Virus record (IMG/VR): IMGVR_UViG_3300048839_000720
Coordinates: 1 to 36,985 of that record
Length of the DNA: 36,985 nt
Origin: a virus
Strand: one strand, 5' to 3'
In this document: positions 6,510 through 33,011 of the stretch, in pieces
Layout: every line of letters starts with the position of its first letter
How positions within the stretch are numbered: the first letter of the stretch is position 1
Notes under the pieces: generated by a model
What the model was told of the DNA's origin: nothing
Seen by the model: only the letters and a program-made list of their open reading frames with translations
Databases searched by the model: none
Translations under genes and position numbers: made by a program

Positions 6510-7741
6510 GCGTACGCCTCACTCGGGAGCGTGATTCGCCCAAGGCCGTTGGGCTTCTCGCTCGCGAAGTTGTGGTCGATCACGACCGTTGCGGTGTACG
6601 CGTCGTTGCGGTTGTCGTAGACCATCTCGATCCCCTCGACATCCGCGAGCGCGGGCTGCTTGCCCGTGGTGCAGTGCATGAAGCACCCCTTGCCGATGAC
6701 GCGAGCCACGCCCACGGGGCAGTCGCGGTCCTCGACGATGACGTGGCCCGAGGCGGTCCGGAATTTCTCGATTCCGATCCCGTACTCGTTGTCGCTGTCG
6801 ATGAAGCGCGAGCCTTCCTTCGCGATGCGAAGGCCGCCGACGCTCATGGGATTCATGAACACCTCGGCCTGCTTGAAGGGGTTGCCGTGCTGCAGCGAGA
6901 ACAGCCGGTCCGCTTTGATGAACACGGTCTCGATCGAGTCGCTCGACCCGTTGTAGCGCATGCCCCCGAGGTAGGCGGGAGCTACGCTGCGGTCGACGGT
7001 CCAGAACGCCGTAGCGCCCGGAGCCGACGACGGGTTCCACGACTCGAGCCCCGTGCACGCGGCGCCGAAATCGCCCTCCGCGAAGAGGTAGTCGTTGGCC
7101 GCGATGCTCGAGATCGTGGACCAGTTGGCGTTCGCCACGAGCACGCCCGTTTCGAGAGCCACGCTCACGATCGTCACGTACGTCGGCGAGCCGCGAAGCG
7201 AGCCGGTCGTGCCGTCGTCCGCGCTCGCGCCGACGCGCATGCCCGGATAGAAGTGCACCGCGTCTGCGGGGTTGGCGAGCGTCAGCGACGTGGTCGAGAT
7301 CGCGATGGTGGGGTGGACGCGCGCGCGATAGCCGCCCGCGTTGAGGTAGGCCTCCTTCGCGATGTTGTCGCCAGCGCCCTCGAGAGCGAGGAACACCTCA
7401 CGCTTGAGAGCGTTTTCGAAGCTGTTCGAGTCGTTCGAACGCTTGGCCTTGCGGACGACGCCGCCGTGGAGGCGAAACGTCAGGTAGTCGGTCACGGGCG
7501 TGACCTTGAACGCAACGTCGCGGCTGCCGTCCTCGTTGTCGTAGGCGACAGTCGAGCTGTGCGAGCGGCCTGCGGGCTTCGCGTAGTTCACCGGGATCTT
7601 GAAGTAGTCCCCGACCATGGATTCGGTGTCGTTCGGGATCGTGGCCATCAACGGGTGAGCGTTGACCATGGCCTTGCGATCCCAGTTTTTCGAACCCATC
7701 TCCCGCAGAATGGGGGAGATTTCGACGGTGGTAAGCGGCAT
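6506..7741 (-). CDS. Major capsid protein
   Basis: The 411-aa product is a typical length for an HK97-fold capsid protein. The N-terminal half has the usual pattern: an early helical arm, a core strand (GDYFKIPVNYAKPAGRSH), a spine-helix region (SFENALKREVFLALEGAGDN) and a following Gly-rich turn (LNAGGYRARV). It lies between a scaffold-like gene and small head genes. An SD-like sequence precedes the ATG. The subfamily could not be assigned by eye. Confidence 0.8.
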   Translation of the reverse strand: MPLTTVEISPILREMGSKNWDRKAMVNAHPLMATIPNDTESMVGDYFKIPVNYAKPAGRSHSSTVAYDNEDGSRDVAFKVTPVTDYLTFRLHGGVVRKAKRSNDSNSFENALKREVFLALEGAGDNIAKEAYLNAGGYRARVHPTIAISTTSLTLANPADAVHFYPGMRVGASADDGTTGSLRGSPTYVTIVSVALETGVLVANANWSTISSIAANDYLFAEGDFGAACTGLESWNPSSAPGATAFWTVDRSVAPAYLGGMRYNGSSDSIETVFIKADRLFSLQHGNPFKQAEVFMNPMSVGGLRIAKEGSRFIDSDNEYGIGIEKFRTASGHVIVEDRDCPVGVARVIGKGCFMHCTTGKQPALADVEGIEMVYDNRNDAYTATVVIDHNFASEKPNGLGRITLPSEAYA

Positions 7742-8848: not shown

Positions 8849-10699
8849 TCACTCAGCCGCGATGGGCGGCTCGGCTGGCATCGCGCCGGGCATCGGCGCT
8901 TGCATCGGTGCGCCCATCGCCTCAGGCGCCGCGGGGCCCGCCGGCGTTGCCTCGACGGGTGGCTGTATCGCGGCCGCGATCTCGTCCTGCTTGGCCTTGA
9001 TCGCGTCGATGTAGGCGCGTAGCTCGAGGGCGAGCTCGTCAGGTAGCCCGTCCTCCAGCTCGCTGACGTAGCGCCGACGCGCGTAATCCGCGGCCACCGC
9101 GAGGTTCTGGTACACGTCGGGCCGGACGTTGAGCTCGCCGCCGAGGATGCGCGCCACCTGGGCCTGCGCGAGCCGCAGGTCTGCCGTGTGCAGGTCCTCG
9201 TAGGCCTCGAGGTCGGGCAGGCCGTGGAGCTGCAGCGCGAATTCTTGGGTAATCCAACCTTGCTGGACCAGCTCCTCGATGCGGTCGTAACGCGCGCCCG
9301 GCGTGGTCGGCAGCTGCGAGATCGGAAAGACCGCGATGCGCGCGTCGCCCTCGCTCAGCCTGAGCTCGCCCCAGCGTGACGTCTCGAGGAACTTCGCGCG
9401 CACGCTCGCCGCGACTTCGAAGCTCGGGTCTTCGTCGGCGATGTCGTCGAGCAGATCGACGAGGCACTCGTAGCAGCGCAAACAGTCCTGCTCGAACTGG
9501 CGGATGTTGCGCGAGTGCCGACGCGAAGCGATGTCGTCGACGGTCCGCATGCCGACGGCGCTCGACACGCCCGCGGGCTTTTCGCCCTGCACCTGGGCCT
9601 GCGAAATGCCCTTCTCCGACCACACTTGCTCGCGGATGCGGTCGATCTCGGCGACGAGGTCCTGGGGCGTCGCGTCGAACGTGAAGAACGTGGGCGGCTG
9701 GTCTCCGGCGTAGCGGATCACGCTCATCTCGAGGTTGTCGATGTCCTCCTCGGTGACCTCGGCCATGCCGTTCACGAACACCCTCGGCACGCTGCCGAGA
9801 TCCTGGCAGCGCTCGACGAACTTGATCAGGTTGTGGATCCGCGCCTGGGCGCCGCGCACCTCGTCCGCGAGTGAGCGCCCGAGGAAGCCGACTTGGCGCT
9901 TGGCCCAGCGAAAAAACGCGATCGGGAAACGCGGCCGCGTCCAGTCCTGCACGTGGAGCAGCGCCGTGTCGGTGCAGATCACGTGCAGCCCGTCGGTGGA
10001 CCGGCTCGAGCTCGGCAGGTGCCAGGCCTTCGCGACCGGCACCATGTCGCAACCCTCGTAGTAGCGCATGCCCGCGTCGATCAGCTCTTCGCGCGAAGCC
10101 GAGCGGCTCTTGCGGATGTCGGAGGCCTTCGACGGGTAGAGCGCTGCGAGCTGCTCTCGGTCGACGAGGAGCTTGCGCGTGAGCGTGCGCGGCGTGCCGC
10201 GGTAGGCCTCGATGGGGTCCCACGCGAGCTCGTTCGGGAGCACGCGCTCGGCCATGGGTCCGCCGCTGTCGGGGTTGCGAAGGAACTCGATGGCGCCGAT
10301 GGCCGTCGTGCACGCGTCGTCGTAGGCGTCGGCCATGAGCTCGAACAGCCCGAGCTCCACGCCCAGCGTCTGCAGCGTGCGCGTGCGCAGCTTGGCCCGT
10401 CGCTGCAGGTCCCAGTCGCCCGCCTTGACGACGGCCTGCGGAATGGGCCGATTCGCCGAGACGATCGAAAGCATCGTGTCGATCGTCGACGACACGAGGT
10501 TGTACCTCAGCCGCCCGTCGTCCCCGAGGTAGAGCCCGTCGCCCGTGATGTCCGGCGATCCGTTGCGCAGTGCCATGAGGTGCCGGCACTTGTCGCGGTA
10601 GTTGCGCTGCGTGTCGGTGAACGTGTCGATCGCCGCGAACACCGCGGCCGGGAGGTCGGCGCGCTTCTGCTCGTACCAGGCCTTCTCATGCTCGGTCAT
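8849..10699 (-). CDS. Portal protein
   Basis: The 616-aa product has the size and order expected for a podoviral portal. The N-terminal half is helix-rich, the central region includes a wing segment (RFPIAFFRWAKRQVGFLGRS), a long helical stem follows, and a Pro/Ala/Met-rich C-terminal tail is present (about 585-616). Portals form the dodecameric channel at the packaging vertex. It precedes the scaffold gene, and its ATG overlaps the preceding stop as ATGA (10,696-10,699). Confidence 0.8.
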   Translation of the reverse strand: MTEHEKAWYEQKRADLPAAVFAAIDTFTDTQRNYRDKCRHLMALRNGSPDITGDGLYLGDDGRLRYNLVSSTIDTMLSIVSANRPIPQAVVKAGDWDLQRRAKLRTRTLQTLGVELGLFELMADAYDDACTTAIGAIEFLRNPDSGGPMAERVLPNELAWDPIEAYRGTPRTLTRKLLVDREQLAALYPSKASDIRKSRSASREELIDAGMRYYEGCDMVPVAKAWHLPSSSRSTDGLHVICTDTALLHVQDWTRPRFPIAFFRWAKRQVGFLGRSLADEVRGAQARIHNLIKFVERCQDLGSVPRVFVNGMAEVTEEDIDNLEMSVIRYAGDQPPTFFTFDATPQDLVAEIDRIREQVWSEKGISQAQVQGEKPAGVSSAVGMRTVDDIASRRHSRNIRQFEQDCLRCYECLVDLLDDIADEDPSFEVAASVRAKFLETSRWGELRLSEGDARIAVFPISQLPTTPGARYDRIEELVQQGWITQEFALQLHGLPDLEAYEDLHTADLRLAQAQVARILGGELNVRPDVYQNLAVAADYARRRYVSELEDGLPDELALELRAYIDAIKAKQDEIAAAIQPPVEATPAGPAAPEAMGAPMQAPMPGAMPAEPPIAAE

Positions 10700-12065: not shown

Positions 12066-12739
12066 CCCGCGGCCTCCTTCGGATGGTCGAACTCCAGGCG
12101 TATCGAGGCGATGTTTTCGAACGGAACGAGCGCGCAAGTCTCGTAGTCTGGATGCACGAACACCACGGCGCGTTGCTCCGGGTCGTAAATAGCCTGCGTG
12201 CGATTGCTCGTCTCCCTGCGCCACAGGTTGACCTCGAAGCTGCCCGTCCCTGGAAGCATGACCGGCTCGCGAAACCTCACCATCAAAACGTCACCTGGCA
12301 TATCGACCACCCTTGCTAGCCGCACGTCGGTGCGGACCTGCCTCTGTTCGAGCCGTGGCGTCCACCGCGGATGCCACGACGCCGCGACCCAGCGACTCAC
12401 GCCGTGATGCGCGCAGGCGCACGCGACGAGCGCACGCGCGAGTCCCTGCCTGCGCCACGGTCCCTTCACGTTCACCCAGTGCACCGCGCACTCGTCGCCG
12501 GCGAGCTCGCTCGCCACGAAGCCACCGAGCCACCACGGCTCGCTGTCCGAGGTGAGCACATGCAGCGCCCAGCCCGGACGACGCGAGAGGGCCTCGATGC
12601 GCGCATGCTCGTAGCGGTGCCAGTCGTCCTTGCCGAGCGGGTCTGAGTGGCTCGGCCTCGCGTCCCACGCAGACCGGAGCCACGCCGAATACACGTACGG
12701 CGAGACCCTGTCTGCGAGCGTGACGCGATAGTCGAGCAA
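12062..12739 (-). CDS. GNAT-type acetyltransferase with an extra C-terminal domain
   Basis: The 225-aa product uses a TTG start at 12,739 with a good GGAGG site. Residues 1 to about 146 look like a GNAT fold: a CoA-binding block (VKGPWRRQGLARALVACA) follows a strand with WLGGFVASEL. Residues from about 147 onward (from an internal Met at 12,301) are a separate beta-rich piece of about 79 aa (MPGDVLMVRFREP...). An internal AAGGGTGG sits just before that Met. It may be a fusion of two genes, or the small domain may also be made separately. Substrate unknown. Confidence 0.65.
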   Translation of the reverse strand: MLDYRVTLADRVSPYVYSAWLRSAWDARPSHSDPLGKDDWHRYEHARIEALSRRPGWALHVLTSDSEPWWLGGFVASELAGDECAVHWVNVKGPWRRQGLARALVACACAHHGVSRWVAASWHPRWTPRLEQRQVRTDVRLARVVDMPGDVLMVRFREPVMLPGTGSFEVNLWRRETSNRTQAIYDPEQRAVVFVHPDYETCALVPFENIASIRLEFDHPKEAAG

Positions 12740-12742
12740 GCT

Positions 12743-12862
12743 CTACCTCCCCACCGCGTCGAGCCACTCGTCCACGTCGCCCCCGTCGAGCATCACTGCC
12801 GCGAGTAGGAGCACGATCGCGCACGCCGTCAGCCCGTCCGCGAATGCCTGTTTCACGTTCAC
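12743..12862 (-). CDS. Small single-span membrane protein
   Basis: The 39-aa ORF starts at GTG 12,862, overlapping the rusA-like stop (GTGA), and ends just before the TTG start of the GNAT gene. It holds one hydrophobic segment (LTACAIVLLLAAVMLDG) and an acidic C-terminus. The length and single span would fit a small membrane-active or regulatory protein; no family was recognised. Conserved stop/start spacing on both sides supports it as a real gene. Confidence 0.55.
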   Translation of the reverse strand: MNVKQAFADGLTACAIVLLLAAVMLDGGDVDEWLDAVGR

Positions 12863-13242
12863 GATCTCACCTCCTCCACCTCGACACGCACCGCGTAGGC
12901 CTTCGGCGCGCTCTTCTCCTGCGCGTACTGCCACTCGACGCGAGGGTCGCCGTCGTCCACCCCCAGCGCGTCCGCCACGCCGTCGCGCACGTGCTTGAGC
13001 GAGCCGCGAAGGTTGTCGTCGTCGAGCCGCCTGGGGGCGCACCTCACGAGCCTGACGACGCACGGCAGCTCGAAGCTGCCGAGCCCCCAGGCCTGCGCAG
13101 CCACGCGCACCGTTCCCCGCTCCTTCGCCGCACGCCTAGCCCGTGCTGACCAGTGCTCACGGCTGTTGAGCAGGCTCACCGTCCTCAGGGGCACCGCGAA
13201 GGCGGTAGCCCTCGCTGGGCTATCCCGTGCTGACGCGCTCAT
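12859..13242 (-). CDS. rusA: RusA-like Holliday junction resolvase
   Basis: The 127-aa product has the RusA size. The signature acidic block is at residues 73-77 (LDDDN), followed by the conserved helix LRGSLKHVRDGVADALG (78-94) and the second acidic pair (VDDGD, 95-99), where the metal-binding Asp residues lie. A beta-strand ending in RVEVEEVRS closes the fold. RusA enzymes cut Holliday and branched junctions, here probably resolving replication or recombination intermediates before packaging. Its ATG overlaps the previous TGA. Confidence 0.8.
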   Translation of the reverse strand: MSASARDSPARATAFAVPLRTVSLLNSREHWSARARRAAKERGTVRVAAQAWGLGSFELPCVVRLVRCAPRRLDDDNLRGSLKHVRDGVADALGVDDGDPRVEWQYAQEKSAPKAYAVRVEVEEVRS

Positions 13243-13448
13243 GACCTCCCCTTTCGCCCGCGAAGGAACGTGCTCGGCGCAAGCTCCCTGCGGGCCTGTA
13301 GAGCCAGCTCGTCGCCCGAGACGGCCTGCACCTCGTCCCGGTACGCCGCGAGGGCGTACGCGAGCTCCTCGACAGCCCCAGGCCCCAGCCCAAGGCGTTC
13401 CGAGAGTTCCCGAGCGAGCACACGCTCCCGTGCGAACGGCTCAGTCAT
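13239..13448 (-). CDS. Small hypothetical protein before rusA
   Basis: The 69-aa product starts at ATG 13,448 (a GTG lies directly before it). It is mostly helical (ARELSERLGLGPGAVEELAY) with a basic C-terminus (RGRKGRS). Stop/start overlap with the rusA-like gene shows co-translation. No family was recognised. Confidence 0.55.
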   Translation of the reverse strand: MTEPFARERVLARELSERLGLGPGAVEELAYALAAYRDEVQAVSGDELALQARRELAPSTFLRGRKGRS

Positions 13449-17987: not shown

Positions 17988-18233
17988 CTATCCCGCGTCT
18001 GCCCGCCCATCCTCTGGGATAGAGGACTCCCCGAACAGATGGCCTACGGTGACACCGAGCGCGTGAGCGACCCGCTCGAGATGCTCGAGACTCGGCTCTA
18101 CCTGCCCCCATTCCCACCGGTAAACCGTCTGCCTGTCGCGTCCCACGTGCTCGGCGAGCTGCTGCGCGGACATAGACGCCCGCTCGCGCGCCTCGCGGAT
18201 TCGCCTTCCGACACTGAGCGATTTGGCTGACAC
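17988..18233 (-). CDS. Xre-family transcriptional regulator (Cro-like)
   Basis: The 81-aa product starts at GTG 18,233. A single Xre/Cro-CI helix-turn-helix fills residues about 8-65: VGRRIREARERASMSAQQLA, then DRQTVYRWEWGQVEP and LERVAHALGV. There is no dimerisation or cleavage domain, which is a Cro-like size. It is transcribed towards the Dam-led lytic operon and diverges from a second Xre gene at 18,279. Its promoter would share the operator at 18,246-18,258. Confidence 0.8.
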   Translation of the reverse strand: MSAKSLSVGRRIREARERASMSAQQLAEHVGRDRQTVYRWEWGQVEPSLEHLERVAHALGVTVGHLFGESSIPEDGRADAG

Positions 18234-18268
18234 ATTCTCCCAATAAACAATAAATGTTCATCGCGCAA
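18223..18268. promoter_or_regulatory. Divergent promoters around a shared operator
   Basis: The near-palindrome AACAATAAATGTT at 18,246-18,258 is the best copy of the operator motif. Leftward, TTGCGC (18,268-18,263) and TATTGG (18,245-18,240) are 17 bases apart with the dyad exactly in the spacer. Rightward, TTGGCT (18,223-18,228) and AACAAT (18,246-18,251) are also 17 apart. One bound dimer could therefore control both regulator genes. Promoter matches are partial; the dyad is clear. Confidence 0.5.
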
Positions 18269-18278
18269 CTGAGAATCG

Positions 18279-18737
18279 ATGTCCTCCGACGCAAACGACA
18301 CACTCGACCCCGAAATGTCGAAGAACCGCTCGCCTCAGGGCGAGAGACTCGCAAGGGCCCGAGAGGCCGCGGGGTATCCGACGCAATCGGCACTCGCGGA
18401 CGCGATCAAGGTGCGCACACAGACGATCTGGCGCATCGAGACAGGAGGCTACCCGCTCTCGAGATCCACAGCGCGCCGGCTCGCGCCCAAGCTCGGTGTG
18501 TCCGAGGCCTGGCTGATGTACGGGACCCCCGACGACGGAGTCCGTCAGCCGCCCCCCTCTGTCGAGATCTACCTAGCAAGCGAGCTTGCGGCCGATTGTA
18601 CAGAACAGGTACGCGCGCGCCTGCGCGCGGTTAACTACGCGACCTTAGGCGTCCCAGACCCAGGGGTGAAAGACGTCCACCGTGTACGAGAATTGATTGA
18701 ATTCAATCTGTCGATCGGGCGAAAACGCTCGGTCTGA
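18279..18737 (+). CDS. Xre-family regulator, probable lysogenic repressor
   Basis: The 152-aa product has an N-terminal Xre helix-turn-helix at about 18-80 (GERLARAREAAGYPTQSALA, VRTQTIWRIETGG, KLGVSEAWLMYG). Its C-terminal region of about 65 aa lacks the Ser/Lys protease motif of LexA-like repressors as far as can be seen. It is divergent from the smaller Xre gene, and with the next two genes forms a unit closed by a terminator. That layout suggests the CI role, while the 81-aa protein would be Cro-like. An in-frame ATG at 18,315 is an alternative start. Confidence 0.75.
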   Translation: MSSDANDTLDPEMSKNRSPQGERLARAREAAGYPTQSALADAIKVRTQTIWRIETGGYPLSRSTARRLAPKLGVSEAWLMYGTPDDGVRQPPPSVEIYLASELAADCTEQVRARLRAVNYATLGVPDPGVKDVHRVRELIEFNLSIGRKRSV

Positions 18738-18739
18738 CC

Positions 18740-18970
18740 ATGCTTCGCCAAAATACTTGGAACAGCAAATACTTGACTGAAGTATGCAGGTACCTGGACT
18801 CACCGAGCGGGCGGAGCACCCCGTCGAGCATTGCCACCGCGATGCTCGCCGTGGATCCTGACTCGCTCGGCCTGCCCTCGGTACCGTGCTTGCTGCAACT
18901 CGAGGCTCTCAGATGGACCCTTGAAAGGCTGCAAAAAAAGGGGGGGGTAGAACATGATGCGCGCGATTAG
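18740..18970 (+). CDS. Hypothetical protein between repressor and lipoprotein genes
   Basis: The 76-aa ORF starts two bases after the repressor stop. It is a mixed helical sequence (LPSVPCLLQLEALRWTLERL) with no recognised family. It ends through an A7G8 homopolymer (18,933-18,947) and overlaps the lipoprotein start by 17 bases. A dyad lies near its 5' end. No clear ribosome site precedes it, so translation may be coupled. It could be a leader or regulatory ORF; that it is expressed is not certain. Confidence 0.45.
   Translation: MLRQNTWNSKYLTEVCRYLDSPSGRSTPSSIATAMLAVDPDSLGLPSVPCLLQLEALRWTLERLQKKGGVEHDARD
18757..18785 (+). promoter_or_regulatory. Dyad and possible promoter ahead of the lipoprotein gene
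   Basis: ATACTT-gactg-AAGTAT (18,769-18,785) is a perfect 6-bp dyad. AAATACTTG occurs twice, at 18,751 and 18,767. TTGGAA at 18,757 and AAGTAT at 18,780 are 17 bases apart and could be a weak promoter overlapped by the dyad. The motif differs from the AACA-type operators. Confidence 0.3.
18933..18947 (+). other. A7G8 homopolymer tract with an in-frame slippery heptamer
   Basis: Seven A are followed by eight G, six bases before the lipoprotein ATG. In the 18,740 frame the A run reads A-AAA-AAG, the dnaX-type -1 slippery heptamer. A -1 shift would end at TGA 18,955-18,957, giving an ATGA junction with the lipoprotein start. Slippage in replication or transcription could also change spacing ahead of the start codon. 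Confidence 0.5.
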
Positions 18971-19415
18971 AGGCCTCTGCGCGGCGACTGTGGTCGTCGC
19001 ACTGGGATGCGGGGACGACGCGACGGAGCCTGGGCTCGAGGGGCGCTGGTACGCGGACACGGGGGGCACGTGCGGGCTGATCCTCGACCTGGACGCGGGC
19101 GAGTACGAGAGCCTGGTCCTCTGCGAGCTCACAGACGGCAGCGTGGGCGTGCAGACGATCGCGGGCAGCTACGCGACGAGCGGAGATCGGATCACGTTCA
19201 GCCCTGAGCGCTCCTCGTGTCGAGATCTCGAGTCAGACACGAACGCGTGGGCGCTGCTCAACGACGGCGAGAATCTCAGGCTTGTGGTGGGCGAGGCTGT
19301 AGTGATCCTCGAGCGCGTGGAGCGCACCGAAGGCGACGGCGCCAGCGGAGTCGTGACGCTCGGCTGCTACGACGCAGACGGGCTTTTCACGCCGATGGCG
19401 GTCGCCGAGCAGTAG
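18954..19415 (+). CDS. Secreted lipoprotein, candidate superinfection-exclusion factor
   Basis: The 153-aa product has a short basic start (MMRAIRG), a hydrophobic core and a lipobox ending in ALGC at Cys19. GDD follows, so a lipid-anchored mature protein of about 135 aa is expected, probably not retained at the inner membrane (no Asp at +2). The mature part looks beta-rich (EGRWYAD, a GSYATSGDRITF strand turn) with four further Cys, and could be lipocalin-like. It follows the repressor gene and ends at a strong terminator, the position of lysogenic conversion genes. Exclusion is inference; no family was recognised. An alternative ATG lies at 18,957. Confidence 0.75.
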   Translation: MMRAIRGLCAATVVVALGCGDDATEPGLEGRWYADTGGTCGLILDLDAGEYESLVLCELTDGSVGVQTIAGSYATSGDRITFSPERSSCRDLESDTNAWALLNDGENLRLVVGEAVVILERVERTEGDGASGVVTLGCYDADGLFTPMAVAEQ

Positions 19416-19446
19416 CGCGACGCACGTGATAGTCAGAAAATGCGCG

Positions 19447-19471
19447 GACCGGCTTCGGCCGGTCTTTTTTT
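19447..19471 (+). terminator. Rho-independent terminator with UUCG loop
   Basis: GACCGGC and GCCGGTC form a 7-bp perfect stem around a TTCG tetraloop, followed by seven T. It closes the repressor-lipoprotein unit and insulates it from the early rightward operon that starts at 19,509. Confidence 0.9.
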
Positions 19472-19472
19472 G

Positions 19473-19500
19473 TTGGCGGAATAGTCATTTACTGTTTAGT
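19473..19500 (+). promoter_or_regulatory. Candidate early rightward promoter with embedded operator O4
   Basis: TTGGCG (19,473-19,478) and TTTAGT (19,495-19,500) are 16 bases apart. Between them, on the minus strand, lies AACAGTAAATGAC (19,496-19,484). Its first eleven bases differ from the 18,246 operator at one position. A repressor bound here would block the early operon. The first start codon follows at 19,509. Confidence 0.5.
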
Positions 19501-19508
19501 CTGGGTGC

Positions 19509-19760
19509 ATGTCGATCGCGGCCCACATCGAAGCCCTCTACCGCAAGCGCGCGGTGCTCGTCGCGTGCACAGACTGGGCGGAGGGCCTGCCGTGCGCGCC
19601 CGACGCGAGCGACGCTGACGCCAGCGTGACGCGCGCCCTCGTGCTCACGCTCGGCCACCGCTACGAAGCGAGCGACTCTGACCGCGAGGCCTATGAGAAG
19701 GCCTATCGCGCGGAGTACGCGCGCTGCGAGGCCGAGCACGCAGAGGAGGCGGCCCAATGA
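19509..19760 (+). CDS. First early rightward gene, small acidic protein
   Basis: The 83-aa product is helical and acidic (SDREAYEKAYRAEYARCEAE) with no recognised family. It begins 13 bases after the putative early promoter, with little room for a leader, and its TGA overlaps the next ATG. First genes of early phage operons often act on the host, but nothing in the sequence shows this directly. Confidence 0.65.
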   Translation: MSIAAHIEALYRKRAVLVACTDWAEGLPCAPDASDADASVTRALVLTLGHRYEASDSDREAYEKAYRAEYARCEAEHAEEAAQ

Positions 19761-20275
19761 GCGCGCTCGCATCGAGGGCCTGCGACGGGTGCCGGGTGCT
19801 GACGCGTGAGGATTGCCTCGCGCGCACCGAGCTGCTCGCGCGTGGCGAGTGGGTCTGCGAGCGCTGCGAGGACGAGCTCGTCAGTGAGCAGCACGAGCTC
19901 GACCGGGCAGACGCGTACGACGCGCACGAGGCCGAGACGGGCCCGTGCAGGTGCGAGCACTGCGCGCGCCACAGAGCGCGCGAGGCGCGGAAGATCGTGC
20001 GGCAGTGGGCCGCGAAGGGGGCAGAGATGGCGGCAGGCGAGGGCAAGGTGGTGGAGCTCGACCCGTGGCGGGTGAGCGTGCACGAGCTGAGGCGCACCGA
20101 GGCGGACATCGCGCGCATGCACCGCGAGGGCAACTCGATCGGCGTGGTGAGCGAGACGCAGATCCTGCTCGTGCGCGCGCTCGCGGCCATCTGCGACGGG
20201 CACCACGACCCGCGAGGCCTCGCCGAGGCAGCGCTCACGATCGCCGACCGCGTCGGACGCGGGGGTGAGCCGTGA
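19757..20275 (+). CDS. Early zinc-knuckle protein
   Basis: The 172-aa product has two cysteine clusters in its N-terminal half: CDGC with CERC (about 9-40) and CRCEHC (about 63-68). A helical C-terminal domain without Cys motifs follows, apart from one late Cys. Paired CxxC sites suggest zinc binding. ATGA coupling links it to the gene before and GTGA coupling to the gene after. No family was recognised. Confidence 0.65.
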   Translation: MSALASRACDGCRVLTREDCLARTELLARGEWVCERCEDELVSEQHELDRADAYDAHEAETGPCRCEHCARHRAREARKIVRQWAAKGAEMAAGEGKVVELDPWRVSVHELRRTEADIARMHREGNSIGVVSETQILLVRALAAICDGHHDPRGLAEAALTIADRVGRGGEP

Positions 20276-20409
20276 TCACGATCGACTGGCGCACGGTGCG
20301 CGAGCTCGTCCGGCTCGGGCTGTCCGAGATCACGCTCGGTGACCTCGCCCTGATCGGCGAGCCACGTCTACGGCTGCTCGTGTGCGCTCGAGCGCGCGGA
20401 GCGGCCTGA
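20272..20409 (+). CDS. 45-aa early protein
   Basis: This short ORF starts at GTG 20,272, overlapping the previous TGA (GTGA). It encodes an amphipathic sequence (TIDWRTVRELVRLGLSEITL) followed by a short Arg-rich tail. The overlap and regular codon use support it as a gene. Function unknown. Confidence 0.5.
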   Translation: MITIDWRTVRELVRLGLSEITLGDLALIGEPRLRLLVCARARGAA

Positions 20410-20416
20410 GGAGTCT

Positions 20417-20491
20417 GGGCGAGCGGTCACCCAACCAATCCCCATCGCCGCTCGCCCGACAGCCGGGCCACCGGGCACCCCATCAGGTGGC
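20417..20491 (+). promoter_or_regulatory. Two hairpins in the gap before the DUF6948-like gene
   Basis: GGGCGAGCGG (20,417-20,426) pairs perfectly with CCGCTCGCCC (20,448-20,457), a 10-bp stem with a 21-base loop. A second stem GCCACC/GGTGGC spans 20,467-20,491. No T-run follows either. This 101-base gap is one of the few breaks in the rightward operon, and a clean GGAGG site follows it. An mRNA-processing or attenuation element is possible. Confidence 0.45.
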
Positions 20492-20510
20492 TATTTACTT
20501 GGAGGAAAGA

Positions 20511-20800
20511 ATGTCAGACAGGCAAACGGTACTGGTACGCACCTACAGCGCGGGAGTGCACTGCGGCGAGCTCGTGTCGCACACAGGCAAGGAGGTCGTG
20601 CTCGCCAATGCACGGCGGATCTGGAGGTGGCGTGGCGCGCGCACCCTGCACGAGTTGAGCCTGCACGGACTGCAGGCGGCTAGCGAGGGCTGGTCTCGCG
20701 TGAGTGAGCCGATCTCGCAGATCGTGCTCACAGAAGCGATCGAGATCCTGCCTGTCACGCCGGTTGCTGCGCGTTCGATTGAGTCCTGCGGATGGGCACA

Positions 20801-20804
<4 letters not shown>
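20511..20804 (+). CDS. DUF6948-like phage protein
   Basis: The 97-aa product (VLVRTYSAGVHCGELVSHTG, then VVLANARRIWRWRGA and LTEAIEILPVT) resembles, from memory, a family of small phage proteins catalogued as DUF6948. It is a compact beta-rich sequence with a conserved Arg-Ile-Trp block. Function is unknown. It has a strong ribosome site (TTGGAGGAAAGA) and its TGA overlaps the ATG of the Gly-X repeat ORF, so both are made from one ribosome stream. It may be a processing or control partner of the repeat protein; that is inference. Confidence 0.65.
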
Positions 20805-21088
<284 letters not shown>

Positions 21089-21110
21089 AAATCAACGAAG
21101 GAGGTACGTC

Positions 21111-22148
21111 GTGTTCCAACCATCAGCACCGGCGCAAAACAGCAAGCCAGTCCTTCGCGTGATCACGAACTCGGAGCTGAGCGTCGCGCGCCGCTGCCGG
21201 CGCGAGCACTACTTCGCGTACGTGCTGGGCTACCGCTCGGCGGGCGACGTGGAGGCCCTGCGCTTCGGCACGGCGTGGCATCGCGGGCTTGAGGCGCTCT
21301 GGCTCGGCCGCGGGCTCGACGAGGCCATCGTCGCGGTTACCGACGGCATCGAGGACTGGGCTGAGGCCTCACGCCTTCGCGTGCTGCTCGTCGCCTACGA
21401 CGCGCGCTGGGGCGACGAGCTGCGCGACGAGGTCGTCGCAGTCGAGCAGGCCTTCCGCGCACCCGTGATCAACCCCGAGAGCGGCGCAGCGTCGCGGACC
21501 TTCGAGCTCGCCGGCAAGCTCGACGTGCTGCTCGAGAGGCGCTTCGTCGAGCACAAGACCACGAGCTCGGAGATCGGCTTCGGCTCGGTCTACTGGCAGA
21601 CGCTCAAGCTCAACTCGCAGATCTCGACGTACTACGCGGGCGCTCGCGCGCTCGGGCACGAGGTGGACGGGTGCGTCTACGACGTCGTCAGAAAGCCCGC
21701 GCTACGCCCGTCGCAGGTCCCCGTGCTCGACGACGAGGGCCTCAAGATCGTGCGCGACGCAGACGGGCAACGCGTGCGCACGAAGACCGGCAAGTGGCGT
21801 CAGACCGGCGACTCCGAGCTCGGCTACGTGCTCGAGACGCGGCTCGAGACGCAAGAGGAGTACGAGCAGCGGCTGCTCGAGGAGATCAGCGCGAACCCCG
21901 ACAAGTACTTCCAGCGCGGGGAGGTCGTGAGGCTCGAGAGCGAGGAGCGCGAGGCGCAGCTCGATACGTGGCAGCTCGCGCGCTCACTGCGCGAGGACGA
22001 GCTCGCGGGCCGCTACCCACGCAATGCTGACGCGTGCCGGCGCTACAGCTCGATGTGCCCCTTTTTCGCGGTGTGCTGTGGGGAGGCCGAGCTTGCCGAC
22101 ACCACCCGTTTCGCTCGTCTCGACGACGTGCACCCTGAGCTTGGCTGA
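21111..22148 (+). CDS. PD-(D/E)XK nuclease, RecB/Cas4-like
   Basis: The 345-aa product starts at GTG 21,111 with an AAGGAGGT site 5 bases upstream. The nuclease core is visible: a His at about 57 (TAWHRGLEA), Asp138 in GKLDVLLERR, E147-H-K149 (FVEHKT), and Gln170 in LKLNSQISTYY. One Cys near residue 29 and a C-terminal Cys group (DACRRYSSMCPFFAVCCG) suggest a 4Fe-4S cluster as in AddB/Cas4-type enzymes. Next to a Sak4-like ATPase and an SSB it should be the exonuclease of a phage recombination system. Confidence 0.8.
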   Translation: MFQPSAPAQNSKPVLRVITNSELSVARRCRREHYFAYVLGYRSAGDVEALRFGTAWHRGLEALWLGRGLDEAIVAVTDGIEDWAEASRLRVLLVAYDARWGDELRDEVVAVEQAFRAPVINPESGAASRTFELAGKLDVLLERRFVEHKTTSSEIGFGSVYWQTLKLNSQISTYYAGARALGHEVDGCVYDVVRKPALRPSQVPVLDDEGLKIVRDADGQRVRTKTGKWRQTGDSELGYVLETRLETQEEYEQRLLEEISANPDKYFQRGEVVRLESEEREAQLDTWQLARSLREDELAGRYPRNADACRRYSSMCPFFAVCCGEAELADTTRFARLDDVHPELG

Positions 22149-22185
22149 GCCTGACCACCTGAGATCTCGAGAGAGGAGACGACCC

Positions 22186-23133
22186 ATGAAAGCGCAACTG
22201 AATCGACCACCACCCACGCCGCGCGCGAAGCGCATGACGCTTGGCGCAGTACGCTCGGGCGTGAGCAAAGAGCCCCACCGCATCCTGCTCTACGGCGTCG
22301 GCGGCGTAGGCAAGACGACCTTCGCGGCGGAGATGCCGAGCCCGATCTTCCTCGACACGCAGGAGGGCAGTTCGCGTCTCGACGTCGCGCGCTTCCCCCG
22401 GCCCACGTGCTGGGAAGACGTGCTCGATGCGGTCGCCGAGCTCGAGACGGCAGAGCACAGCTACCGCACGCTCGCGATCGACCTGCTCGACGACCTCGAA
22501 GCCCTCGTGTTCGAGCACATCTGCGCTCGCGATGGCCAGGCGAACATCGAGGCCTACGGCTACGGCAAGGGATACAAGGTCGCGCTGAACGAGTGGCGTG
22601 GGCTGCTCGCGCGCCTCGAGCGCATGCGCCGCGCACGCGGGATGGCCGTCGTCTTCATCGCGCACGCGCAGGTCAAGCTCTTCAAAAATCCCGAGGGCGA
22701 CGACTACGATAGGTATTCGCTCCAGATTCACGAGCAGGCCTCGGGGCTGTTGCGTGGCTGGTGCGACACGGTGCTGTTCGCTCGCCACGAAACGGTGCTC
22801 TCGAAGGACGCGAGGACCAAGCGTGTGCGCGGCATCTCGACCGGCGCGCGTCTGCTGCAGACCGTCGAAACCGCCGCGTACCACGCGAAGAATCGCGATG
22901 GTCTGCCCGACACGCTGCCGCTCGACTACGCGGCCTTCGCGGAGGCTGTGGAGCGTGGCACGCCCGCGAGCGCCGAGGCGCTGCGTGACGAGATCGCGGT
23001 GCTCGCGTCGAGCTGCGACGCGGACACGCAAGACAAGGTTCAGGGTGCGGTAGACGCCGCGCCTGACGACGTACAGCGCCTCGTGCGCGTGCTCAATCGC
23101 CTGCGTGAGCGGGTGCAGGAAAGGGGTGAGTGA
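22186..23133 (+). CDS. Sak4-like RecA-fold ATPase (single-strand annealing/recombinase)
   Basis: The 315-aa product starts at ATG 22,186 after GAGAGGAG. Walker A is GVGGVGKT (37-44) and a Walker B-like strand reads TLAIDLLDDLE. A later VVFIAHAQVK block, and RYSLQIHEQASGLLRGWCD, match the AAA_24 family of phage nucleotide-binding proteins, whose Sak4 members are recombinases that work with SSB. Frames upstream of 22,186 are open but lack a ribosome site. It is flanked by the nuclease and SSB genes. Confidence 0.8.
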   Translation: MKAQLNRPPPTPRAKRMTLGAVRSGVSKEPHRILLYGVGGVGKTTFAAEMPSPIFLDTQEGSSRLDVARFPRPTCWEDVLDAVAELETAEHSYRTLAIDLLDDLEALVFEHICARDGQANIEAYGYGKGYKVALNEWRGLLARLERMRRARGMAVVFIAHAQVKLFKNPEGDDYDRYSLQIHEQASGLLRGWCDTVLFARHETVLSKDARTKRVRGISTGARLLQTVETAAYHAKNRDGLPDTLPLDYAAFAEAVERGTPASAEALRDEIAVLASSCDADTQDKVQGAVDAAPDDVQRLVRVLNRLRERVQERGE

Positions 23134-23708
23134 TGGGGAGTCCAAACAAAATGCGCGTCAAGGCGCGGGCACTCGGGGACACGTTCGAGTTCGGCTTCGC
23201 TTCGACCGGTACCGAGCAGGTGGGCGTGCGCGTGGTCGTCGTGGGCGGCGACTACGACGGGCACGAGTTCACCTGGTACGGCTACTTCACCGAGGCGAGC
23301 GAGGATCGCACGATCGACTCGCTCAAGATCATGGGCTGGGACGGCACGGACGTCGTAAGTCTGCCAGGCCTCGGGAGCACCGAGTTCGAGTTGCAACTCG
23401 AAGAGCAGCTCGACGAGCAGGGCCACCCGTACTGGCGGCCCACGTTCGTCAATCGAATGGGCGTCGCCATGAAACAGGTCATGGACCCTGCAGCAAAGGC
23501 CTCGTTTGCTGCGAGGATCAACGCGAAGATGCGCGCGCAGACGCCCGCATCGGCACGCACGGCGCCGCAGCAACGTCAGGCGCCCGCGCAGCGTCAGGCC
23601 GCGCCGCAACAGCGCTACGCACCACCCGCGCAGAAGCGCGCCGCGAACGGGTCGCAGGCGATCCCGGACGATGCGCCGATGCCTGACGACCCGGATCTTA
23701 ACTTCTGA
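23133..23708 (+). CDS. Single-stranded DNA-binding-like protein
   Basis: The 191-aa product starts at ATG 23,133, overlapping the previous TGA. An OB-like beta region covers about 1-115 (RVVVVGGDYDGHEFTWYGYF, then IMGWDGTDV). A Gln/Pro/Ala-rich disordered linker follows (about 140-178), then an acidic tip DDPDLNF. A linker plus an acidic tip ending in Phe is the SSB plan (E. coli DDDIPF). It would protect single strands and recruit the Sak4-like ATPase or nuclease. Confidence 0.75.
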   Translation: MGSPNKMRVKARALGDTFEFGFASTGTEQVGVRVVVVGGDYDGHEFTWYGYFTEASEDRTIDSLKIMGWDGTDVVSLPGLGSTEFELQLEEQLDEQGHPYWRPTFVNRMGVAMKQVMDPAAKASFAARINAKMRAQTPASARTAPQQRQAPAQRQAAPQQRYAPPAQKRAANGSQAIPDDAPMPDDPDLNF

Positions 23709-28422: not shown

Positions 28423-29052
28423 TCACTCCGCGGCCCCGTCCCGGCCTCGCGTGCGCGTGGCCGCGATCGCCCGCATCAACGCGAGCCCGGGGTCGCGCTT
28501 GCGCCGCGTCAGGTGGTAGTGCCCGACGACGCCGCGGTACTCCGCGAGCTCGTGCACCGGCAGCGTCGTGCGCACGACGTCGCGGCCGTCCATCGGCACC
28601 GCGAAGGGCAGCCCGTAGTGCGCGCACAGGGCCTCGGTGAGCTTGATCGTCGCGGCGACCTGCGCCGGGGTGAACGTCGCGCGCCGCTCTGGCACGCCGT
28701 GCACGTCCTCGAGCACCACTTCGCGTCGGATTCCCCGAACGACCGGGTCGCCTGTTGCGTGGTTTTGGATCTCGACACCGACCGAGCGCGCGTTGTGCCC
28801 GCGTGCGTGCGCGGCGAGCGCGTCCGCGTCGCAGAGCTGATAGACCGAGCCCTCGTGGTCGACGAAAAAGTGGCAGCTCAGGCCGCGCGTCTTGAGCGTG
28901 CCGACGAACGTGTCGACGGGGTTTTCGCCGCCCGTCCAGTGCTCGACGATCAGATCGGTACGCTTGCGCATGCGCGAGACGTGCAGCTTGTGCGTGTGGA
29001 GGATTGGAAACCCAACCTCCACGCGCTTGCCGCCCGCGAACAGCTCGCCCAT
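28423..29052 (-). CDS. Endolysin, N-acetylmuramoyl-L-alanine amidase
   Basis: The 209-aa product starts at ATG 29,052. It has the Amidase_2 (T7 lysozyme-like) fold: first Zn ligand His38 (VEHWTGG), core strand CHFFVDHEGSVYQL, and SVGVEIQNH. The second ligand is His178 (GHYH), with Lys185 and Asp187 in RRKRDPG. The Asp in place of Cys is usual in many relatives. It cuts the amide bond between muramic acid and the peptide stem. There is no signal peptide, so it needs a holin for access to the wall. Confidence 0.85.
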   Translation of the reverse strand: MGELFAGGKRVEVGFPILHTHKLHVSRMRKRTDLIVEHWTGGENPVDTFVGTLKTRGLSCHFFVDHEGSVYQLCDADALAAHARGHNARSVGVEIQNHATGDPVVRGIRREVVLEDVHGVPERRATFTPAQVAATIKLTEALCAHYGLPFAVPMDGRDVVRTTLPVHELAEYRGVVGHYHLTRRKRDPGLALMRAIAATRTRGRDGAAE

Positions 29053-29849
29053 CAACGCGCCACCGCGAGCGCGACGCTCGTCACGGCGACGCCGCCGACG
29101 AGCAGCCCCACGTTGAGCCACAGCCACGGCGAGCGCCACCATGCCTCCGCGCGCTCCTCGCACTCGAGCCGCGCCATGGCCTCGCGGTCCCGAGCCGCGC
29201 CCATAGCGTCCGAGAGCTCGATCTCGCGATCACGCGAAGTCAGCAGGTGCTCGCGCTCAGCGAGTAGCCGGGCCACGGCGAGCTTGTGCTCGTCGAGTGC
29301 GACGCGAAGGCCATCGGTCGCTGCGAGGTCCGAGAGCACGTCGAGATAGACGGGCCTGGGTAGCCAAATGCCGCGTTCTGCGTCGATGGGGTGAAGGGCG
29401 ATGCATGGGGTTCCCGGTTCACTTTGCGTGCACTCCGTGTCTGCCGTGGGCTCCGCTGCGTGCACCGTGCTCGACGCGAGCAGCGCGACCGCGAGCACGA
29501 GCAGTGGGTTTGCGGTCTTCTTTCGTGCGCGCTCGCGAAAGATGAGCACGGCATCGTCGTCGCTCAGCTCGCGCGCCTCGGCCTGCCTGCGCTCTGCGTC
29601 CTGCTCGGCCTGGTGCGCGCGGATCAAGTGCTGCTGCGCCGCCTCGTGCTCGGCCTTCGCTTCGCGCTCGAGCTGCTTGCGCACGTAGGTGCTCATCAGC
29701 CTTCGCGTGATCGGATCGTCCTCGGGTAGAGGGGGTCGGCGGCGCCGGTAGAGCCCGAGCGTGAGCGTGATGGCAAGGGCACTGCACAGCCAGGGCCACC
29801 ACCGGCGCCACCAAATTCTGAAACGCAGGAACAGGATAGCCATCGTCAT
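29052..29849 (-). CDS. Lysis-cassette membrane protein with three hydrophobic segments
   Basis: The 265-aa ORF starts at ATG 29,849. It begins with a Trp-rich span (about 3-34), then a charged coiled coil (about 55-100). A second hydrophobic stretch at about 115-130 (NPLLVLAVALLASSTVHAAE) looks like a signal peptide, and an internal GTG at 29,549 precedes it. A C-terminal span ends the protein (SPWLWLNVGLLVGGVAVTSV). It reads like an inner-membrane spanin fused to a secreted, C-anchored protein. It lies between the holin-like ORF and the endolysin. Whether one or two products are made is open. Confidence 0.55.
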   Translation of the reverse strand: MTMAILFLRFRIWWRRWWPWLCSALAITLTLGLYRRRRPPLPEDDPITRRLMSTYVRKQLEREAKAEHEAAQQHLIRAHQAEQDAERRQAEARELSDDDAVLIFRERARKKTANPLLVLAVALLASSTVHAAEPTADTECTQSEPGTPCIALHPIDAERGIWLPRPVYLDVLSDLAATDGLRVALDEHKLAVARLLAEREHLLTSRDREIELSDAMGAARDREAMARLECEERAEAWWRSPWLWLNVGLLVGGVAVTSVALAVAR

Positions 29850-31592: not shown

Positions 31593-33011
31593 TCAGGCCC
31601 GCTCGTACCACGGCAGGCCTCGGACCTTACTTGCGCTGCGGATCCGCTTTGCGCGCGCCTCGGCGTCGATTTCGGCCTGGCTCTTGTCCGGTCGTTTCGG
31701 CCGCTGCCAGTACGCGTGGTGCTTGCGCCAGCCGTAGAGCCCCGCGTCGCTGCAGTGGTTCGGGTAACTCGGGTGCTCGACGCGCTTTGTGAGGCTCACC
31801 CAGGGGAGCTTTCGCTGCTCGTGGATCAACGCGTCAGCCTCGCCGCGGAGGTACTTCGTGCGGCCCGCGCGAAGGTCGCTGTTGTACAGCGAGATCGCCC
31901 CAGGCTTGTCGGTCTTCTCGGCGTAGCTGATCTGAATCTTGTGCTTGGCCGCCCAGCGCCGATTGAACTCCTCCACGTAGGGCTTGCCGAGGCCTCCGCC
32001 GTCGCCCTCGATCGTCGCCGGTTTGTACCGCTCGGCGAGCTCGGCGGTGACCTCGGCGGCCTCGTCCGCGAGCAGTCCCGAGCGCGTGACCGCGTGCAAC
32101 GCGAACACCTCCTGGCTGTGCGGCGGGCTGCCCCAGACAACCCAGCCGCACTCGTCCGTGTAGCCGAAGTCGACGCCGATCGTCGTGAGCCACGTGTCGC
32201 GGTCAAACGGGACTGGGAGCTCGGACACCACGTTGCGCTGCTCGTTCAGTGCGTACACGAGCGCAGACGGGTTGTTGACCCAGAGCCCGAAGTACTCGCG
32301 GAGATACGACTCGTCGTCCTCGGTCCAGCCGAAGGCCTCGCGCTCCTCGCGCAGCATCTCGTGCGGGTCGCGCGGGTACTTCGAGTTTTCGAGCACGGTC
32401 CACTTGTGACGCGAGTAGCGCCGCGTCTCGGGGTACGTGCTCACGTCGCCCGTGCTCGCCTCGTACCAGTAGCCCACCGTCACGGATCCCGGGGTGCCCG
32501 ACAGCACAAGGCGTCCAGAGAGGTCGGTGAGCGCAGGACCCAAGGCTTCCACGAGGCCAGGCAACAGGTCGTCGTAAGTGCTCGCCTCGTCGAAACACGC
32601 GAGCCTGATCTTGTAGCCGCGCACCTTGTCGATCGCGACCTTGTCGTCCACGCCGAACACGCGAAAGCGGGCGCCGTTCGGGGCACGGATCAAGCCTGTG
32701 TGCTCGCTGAGCTTCCAGCCGAGCTGATACTCTTCGTTGATCCTGACGAGGTGAGACCAGATCAAGTCCTTCGCGATCGCCTGCGTGCGCGCGCCGAACA
32801 CGACCCACTCGTTGTCGCCGCACTGCACAATGGCCGACGCGACGAGCCGCGCGACGAGCTCCGTTTTGCCGGAACGTCGGCCGCAGAGAAGCGCGATGTA
32901 CCGCGATAAATCGCTGACGACCTGGCGCTGCATGTCGTGCAGCTCGGCAGTGAGCGCTTGAACGATGCGCTTTCTGCGCGCGAGCACGAGGAGCGCGTCG
33001 CGCCGGTTCAC
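31593..33011 (-). CDS. terL: Terminase large subunit
   Basis: The 472-aa product starts at GTG 33,011 (GTGA overlap). Walker A is CGRRSGKTEL (from residue 43), and Walker B lies in RLACFDEAS. The C-terminal RNase H-like nuclease shows VDFGYTDE, IEGDGGG and NHCSDAGLYGW, whose Asp residues would bind metal. It pumps DNA into the procapsid through the portal and cuts it. The gene follows three ejection genes and is about 21 kb of leftward transcript away from terS, reminiscent of T7-like orders where terL lies near lysis genes. Confidence 0.9.
   Translation of the reverse strand: MNRRDALLVLARRKRIVQALTAELHDMQRQVVSDLSRYIALLCGRRSGKTELVARLVASAIVQCGDNEWVVFGARTQAIAKDLIWSHLVRINEEYQLGWKLSEHTGLIRAPNGARFRVFGVDDKVAIDKVRGYKIRLACFDEASTYDDLLPGLVEALGPALTDLSGRLVLSGTPGSVTVGYWYEASTGDVSTYPETRRYSRHKWTVLENSKYPRDPHEMLREEREAFGWTEDDESYLREYFGLWVNNPSALVYALNEQRNVVSELPVPFDRDTWLTTIGVDFGYTDECGWVVWGSPPHSQEVFALHAVTRSGLLADEAAEVTAELAERYKPATIEGDGGGLGKPYVEEFNRRWAAKHKIQISYAEKTDKPGAISLYNSDLRAGRTKYLRGEADALIHEQRKLPWVSLTKRVEHPSYPNHCSDAGLYGWRKHHAYWQRPKRPDKSQAEIDAEARAKRIRSASKVRGLPWYERA

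Follow-up and report, generated by a model that had tools for sequence, protein, structure and literature searches.

Lambdoid phages are known to carry morons beyond the repressor, rexAB in lambda and bstA in BTP1, with the cargo lying 3' of the repressor and within its transcript in a mosaic stretch of the immunity region (PMC7067206). In the Streptococcus thermophilus phage TP-J34, the gene for the lipoprotein Ltp belongs to the lysogeny module, where it comes after cI and a metalloproteinase gene; it is transcribed in the prophage, and its product blocks DNA injection (PMC3952083). Phages of Gram-negative hosts make outer-membrane lipoproteins, T5 Llp and Rtp45, that are disulfide-stabilised and inactivate the receptor from the periplasmic side (PMC9586334, PMC12685063). 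Here we analyse a linear IMG/VR virus record, IMGVR_UViG_3300048839_000720, over its whole length of 36,985 bp (the window; G+C 68%), and focus on a repressor-like gene, a 76-amino-acid (aa) open reading frame (ORF) and a lipoprotein gene that together form a genuine, well-ordered unit of the immunity region, bearing a new lipoprotein moron of a known kind. At close to an even chance, we read the region as a lambda-like immunity region whose repressor transcript carries an envelope lipoprotein most likely to exclude rival phages. The unit and its flanks comprise the following features:

17988–18233, minus strand: P0004, an 81-aa helix-turn-helix (HTH) protein (HTH_31/HTH_3, E 6e-13), divergent from P0001 and leading the leftward operon
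18244–18256, minus strand: operator-like 13-mer CATTTATTGTTTA, of putative function, in the 45-bp divergent intergenic region between P0004 and P0001
18279–18737, plus strand: P0001, an Xre/CI-like HTH protein of 152 aa
18740–18970, plus strand: P0002, a 76-aa protein with a homologue in the same place in a relative, modelled by AlphaFold as all-helical (predicted local distance difference test score, pLDDT, 76)
18954–19415 (the start may be 18957), plus strand: P0003, a lipoprotein of 153 aa with a signal peptide (residues 1–18), a predicted lipid-modified Cys19 and a mature domain modelled as all-beta
19446–19471, plus strand: intrinsic terminator with an 8-bp stem, a UUCG loop and a run of seven T (-15.5 kcal/mol, z = -2.4)
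19486–19498, plus strand: operator-like 13-mer CATTTACTGTTTA, of putative function, directly 5' of the first early gene (ATG at 19509)

The original prediction, made from the bare sequence, had described P0001, P0002 and P0003 as a single unit closed by a UUCG-loop terminator, and our analysis bears this out: the three ORFs share the plus strand, separated by 2 nt (P0001 to P0002) and overlapping by 17 nt (P0002 and P0003, by ORF coordinates), and the terminator is the only plus-strand terminator-like site between 17000 and 21000. P0001 scores above the Pfam cut-offs for both HTH_31 (36.6 bits; cut-off 27) and HTH_3 (27.6 bits; cut-off 23), and P0004, which likewise exceeds the cut-offs, forms with it a divergent Cro/CI-type pair 45 bp apart; no peptidase domain was found in either protein. 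P0001 is the probable lysogenic repressor, and P0004 sits in the position of Cro or of a second regulator, a place also held by HTH genes in two relatives, L007 and L005. G+C at the third codon position is 0.73 in P0001 and 0.68 in P0002, compared with 0.86 in P0003, a difference that might be expected had the lipoprotein gene arrived separately.

Set against the described systems, the unit most resembles the Ltp locus, making Ltp, by analogy, the closest role model for P0003: each gene belongs to a lysogeny module, shares the repressor's strand, is separated from a CI-like gene by one small gene and runs divergently to the cro side, although the middle gene of the window has no metalloproteinase match and P0003 has no match to the family models searched. 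RexA, RexB and BstA share with P0003 the place of their genes but are not lipoproteins, and no relation between them and P0003 was seen; in addition, the window's repressor, unlike those of lambda and BTP1, is transcribed toward the recombination operon. Llp and Rtp45, in turn, are phage lipoproteins like P0003 but much smaller and without visible sequence relation to it, and whereas T5 llp adjoins the gene for the receptor-binding protein and is made early in lytic infection, the neighbours of P0003 are regulators and recombination genes.

Bracketing the unit is a near-identical pair of copies of a 13-mer, CATTTAYTGTTTA: one lies in the 45 bp that separate the two HTH genes, the other in the 36 bp from the terminator to the first early gene. 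The copies point outward, as do lambda OL and OR, and the contig has no other exact match (four sites with at most three mismatches, against 0.73 expected); the best match between the window's two flanking regions has p = 0.007 by dinucleotide shuffles. A repeat search over the whole region returned mostly GC-rich chance matches, and only intergenic pairs were taken further. We gathered relatives via the primase and exonuclease, the four closest being L004, L005, L007 and L009. At the same two places L004 has an exact 16-mer, GGACGTATCCATGGGA, again facing outward (18/19 overall, p = 0.003), L005 has its own pair with both copies in the same direction (p = 0.037), and L009 has its own pair, the right-hand site of which overlaps a TTGACG-18-TATAGT promoter (p = 0.056); the L007 pair is not significant (p = 0.22). 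Combined over the five phages, p = 6e-5. Differing immunity specificities would look like this, with an element peculiar to each phage at the two equivalent sites.

The relatives also reveal what occupies the interval between repressor and exonuclease. L007, the closest large relative (primase 65% and exonuclease 60% identical to those of the window, repressor 46% over its full length), has divergent HTH genes, a P0002 homologue (37–43% identity) and, at the homologous place, a terminator (6641–6662), with no lipoprotein there. The homologue establishes the P0002 ORF as a real gene; and because L007 has repressor, P0002 homologue and terminator without the lipoprotein, P0003 looks like an insertion, the comparison suggesting either that it entered between P0002 and the terminator or that L007 lost it. 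L004 and L009 have a different repressor, then a different small ORF, then a lipoprotein gene on the opposite strand. That of L009 is a P0003 homologue turned round (27% identity, E 2e-12) in which the lipobox Cys and the four further Cys are kept, and that of L004 is unrelated to P0003 and the least certain of the set because its lipobox has Pro at -2. L005 carries a third lipoprotein, collagen-like and also on the opposite strand, and the more distant L062 a fourth near the same place.

Thus the window and three of its four closest relatives, four phages out of five, have a lipoprotein gene between the repressor and the early operon, drawn from three mutually unrelated families; over the five phages, the 14.0 kb of repressor-to-exonuclease interval hold four lipoprotein genes and the other 81.4 kb hold one (binomial p = 0.002). 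In L004, L005 and L009 the gene is transcribed against the early operon and therefore cannot belong to it. Since relatives have other, unrelated lipoproteins at the same spot, P0003 is probably cargo that the phage produces while dormant. The comparison with lambda rexAB drawn at the outset, of a gene riding behind a repressor, is now much better supported, on three counts: the bracketing operator-like repeats, the lipoprotein-free interval of L007, and the other lipoproteins of the relatives.

Several further ORFs were seen in these intervals. A second small-ORF family (88–96 aa, ..HAIATL.C..; L004:4806–5072 and L009 about 7350–7639) lies 3' of the repressor in place of the 76-aa gene, with no family match above chance, and the repressor–exonuclease interval of L005 contains an ORF (L005:7415–7909) that shows a zinc-metallopeptidase motif, HELAHVLLG, and, from an internal start, a lipobox. 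In a distant relative, L006, found on a contig of a deltaproteobacterial metagenome-assembled genome (MAG), a prophage-like region (L006:3100–13422) has its integrase after the recombination genes, and between its HTH-like protein and exonuclease are ORFs resembling, by eye, an ImmA-type peptidase, a PD-(D/E)XK-like protein and a ParE-like toxin; the equivalent interval there seems to carry other cargo.

P0003 itself has the codon-position G+C pattern of a real gene (0.69/0.50/0.86). Its N-terminus, MMRAIRGLCAATVVVALGC followed by GDD, is a type II signal peptide fitting the lipobox pattern, and the mature part contains four further Cys (40, 57, 89 and 138), as first noted from the sequence; an alignment shows Cys19 and all four of these kept in three homologues, and the lipobox G-C-G is conserved in four. 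The beta-rich character read from the sequence reappears in an AlphaFold model built with four sequences, which is all-beta with 10 strands (pLDDT 72, predicted template modelling score, pTM, 0.65). The structure search that the original prediction had proposed returned, by Foldseek, ToxS/VtrC, apolipoprotein D, the pneumococcal lipocalin lipoprotein SP_0198 and NlpE as the nearest solved structures, at probabilities of 0.96–1.0 but E values of 0.01–0.15, template modelling (TM) scores of 0.3–0.65 and sequence identities of 6–15%. The model thus points to a probable calycin-like barrel, by resemblance and not by membership: what P0003 would share with SP_0198, the NlpE N-domain and ToxS/VtrC is the form of a small all-beta envelope barrel, a resemblance of fold only, from which, as modelled, no function can be read.

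Family searches agree with the earlier view that the lipoprotein matches no known exclusion family: P0003 had no match above cut-off in Pfam, PHROGs, PADLOC or NCBIfam, and the whole unit (P0001–P0003) had no defence, phage or NCBI family match beyond the HTH domains. The Pfam family 'Nakanori' was considered for P0003 and rejected (E 0.23, below cut-off), and a PDB profile search gave nothing significant. Single-protein searches of phage, viral and genome collections and of plasmids found no homologue of P0003; homologues surfaced only by local comparison of relatives collected through the exonuclease. No cellular homologue turned up in searches of 147 and 195 genomes around the MAG of a distant relative, a weak negative because no positive control existed.

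Besides the inverted L009 copy, two homologues lie at a different place:

L085:2403–2861: P0003 homologue, alone between terL and portal
L087:5780–6235: P0003 homologue, alone between terL and portal

Both are 36% identical to P0003. Between L085 and L087 the lipoprotein is 82% identical at the aa level, terL 95% and portal 99%, and the ratio of nonsynonymous to synonymous substitution (dN/dS) in the lipoprotein gene, 0.28, is that of purifying selection. With homologues at differing places and unrelated lipoproteins at the window's own place, these sequences mark the P0003 family as a small mobile moron family, found so far only in uncultivated phage contigs. In L085 and L087 a short inverted repeat lies 3' of terL, and the site between terL and portal is a place for a moron with no link to the repressor.

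At the junction of P0002 and P0003, an A7G8 tract (18933–18947) spans the end of the P0002 ORF and the ribosome-binding site of the lipoprotein; it contains the only run of at least seven G in the contig, and the heptamer A_AAA_AAG within it is slippery and in phase with the reading frame. Were ribosomes to slip by -1 there, the P0002 frame would end at a TGA overlapping the lipoprotein ATG (ATGA). A programmed frameshift fusing P0002 to the lipoprotein is ruled out by a stop codon, TAG, that closes the lipoprotein frame just 5' of its ATG. Changes in tract length could tune translational coupling between the two genes, and the tract may also be a sequencing artefact. P0002 matched none of the family models searched, and a fold search with its AlphaFold model gave no meaningful or convincing match.

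Beyond the unit, head and portal genes and the primase/helicase occupy the minus strand up to 17,903, and lysis genes (amidase, 28423–29163) and terL the minus strand from 28,423. The genes to the right of the unit are:

19509–23708, plus strand: early operon, outside the unit, made up of small ORFs (first ATG at 19509) and the next three genes
21111–22148, plus strand: PD-(D/E)XK exonuclease
22024–23133, plus strand: Sak4-like annealing protein
23130–23708, plus strand: ORF

Among 50,697 deposited phage records, none matched the portal, and the best matches to terL and the exonuclease reach at most about 31% identity. In the window (31593–33140 and 8849–10699) terL and portal have the contig ends and other genes between them; in L087 the two are adjacent. 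Gene directions across both contig ends are consistent with a circularly permuted, nearly complete genome.

Taken together, the anatomy makes a strong case for an immunity-region unit, and by analogy exclusion is a good guess at what its cargo does. The region would belong to a temperate (or formerly temperate) phage of an uncultivated clade, with the repressor-like gene and its cargo lying, as in lambda, between two outward-facing, operator-bearing early promoter regions, the leftward one serving the 81-aa HTH gene and replication genes and the rightward one the exonuclease/Sak4 operon. In a lysogen, P0001 would bind both sites and hold both early promoters off, while its own transcript, ending at 19471, would also yield the 76-aa protein and the lipoprotein. 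The latter would be exported, cut and lipidated at Cys19, form a small beta-barrel in the envelope, probably held by disulfides, and most likely block adsorption or DNA entry of competing phages. Expression of the unit in lysogeny is probable, the anatomy giving it good support; superinfection exclusion, the most likely function of the lipoprotein, we put a little short of an even chance. Several observations weigh against this account. No integrase or resolvase (PF00589, PF00239) was found in the 37-kb contig, which is not decisive because the contig is linear in IMG/VR; the integrase gene is either outside it or absent. In favour of lysogeny, a tyrosine integrase (E 7e-15) is encoded on the L007 contig, and in L006 an integrase (12139–13422, the PF00589 hit G001:C41:82047–82541) lies just beyond the recombination genes. 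No sigma-70 consensus promoter was found 5' of the unit, and the window's 13-mer is no clear palindrome. Sites bound by HTH dimers are often palindromic. In the statistics above, both the regions compared and the interval were picked once the window's pattern was already in view. Finally, in L085 and L087 the homologue lies among late genes, and linkage to a repressor is therefore no fixed property of the family.

The anatomy and the recurrence of lipoproteins would fit equally well if P0003 served the host, as a ligand-binding or surface lipoprotein of the lysogen comparable to lambda bor and lom for E. coli, both of which are expressed in lysogeny (PMC7067206). The nearest folds, calycin/lipocalin-like and bile-sensor barrels (ToxS, VtrC, ApoD, SP_0198, NlpE), mostly bind small ligands or envelope proteins, which favours such a role; yet the lipoproteins of L004, L005 and L062 share no common ligand-binding family, as if location in the envelope outweighed any particular ligand, and the studied immunity-region cargo (rexAB, bstA, ltp) is antiviral. 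We regard a host-serving lipoprotein as rather unlikely, though a serious competitor. Less probable still is exclusion during lytic infection, in which the unit would be switched on early, P0004 would be the true repressor and P0001 Cro-like, and the lipoprotein would inactivate the receptor as does T5 Llp, itself made early in infection (PMC9586334). The shared strand of unit and early operon, the failure to find an integrase and the late-gene copies of L085 and L087 all agree with it, but a terminator and a second operator-like site part the unit from the early operon, the lipoprotein genes of L004, L005 and L009 run against that operon, and P0003, unlike llp, adjoins no receptor-binding or tail gene.

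Two other readings we consider very improbable. Phage lipoproteins are often spanins, and the L085/L087 homologue sits among head genes, so P0003 might be a misplaced virion protein or Rz1-like outer spanin; the lysis cassette, however, lies elsewhere (see the amidase above), a 134-residue four-Cys beta domain is unlike a short proline-rich outer spanin, and the L007 interval lacks the gene, while L004 and L005 have unrelated proteins in its stead. Gene number and order match the lambda rexAB position, as if the 76-aa protein and the lipoprotein were an obligate two-part defence like RexA (sensor) and RexB (effector), but neither matches a RexA or RexB profile, the lipoprotein has no predicted channel part, and the two are no obligate pair because L007 has only the 76-aa gene and the L085, L087 and L009 loci only the lipoprotein. 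RexAB, spanin and toxin–antitoxin readings were all rejected, for want of family matches and for the wrong neighbours.

A bolder proposal, which we hold only tentatively, is that phages of this uncultivated clade use the stretch from repressor to early operon as a dedicated site for exchanging unrelated envelope lipoproteins, and that P0003 represents a new calycin-like, disulfide-bonded superinfection-exclusion class moving between phages as a single moron. The unit ties a lipoprotein family absent from the searched libraries to the lysogeny switch of a phage clade without a close isolate, and the repeated gain of unrelated lipoproteins at one place is the pattern expected under strong, diversifying selection for exclusion at the level of the envelope. 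If this is confirmed, a survey of the repressor–early operon interval in phages of this sort could turn up further exclusion proteins from gene position alone.
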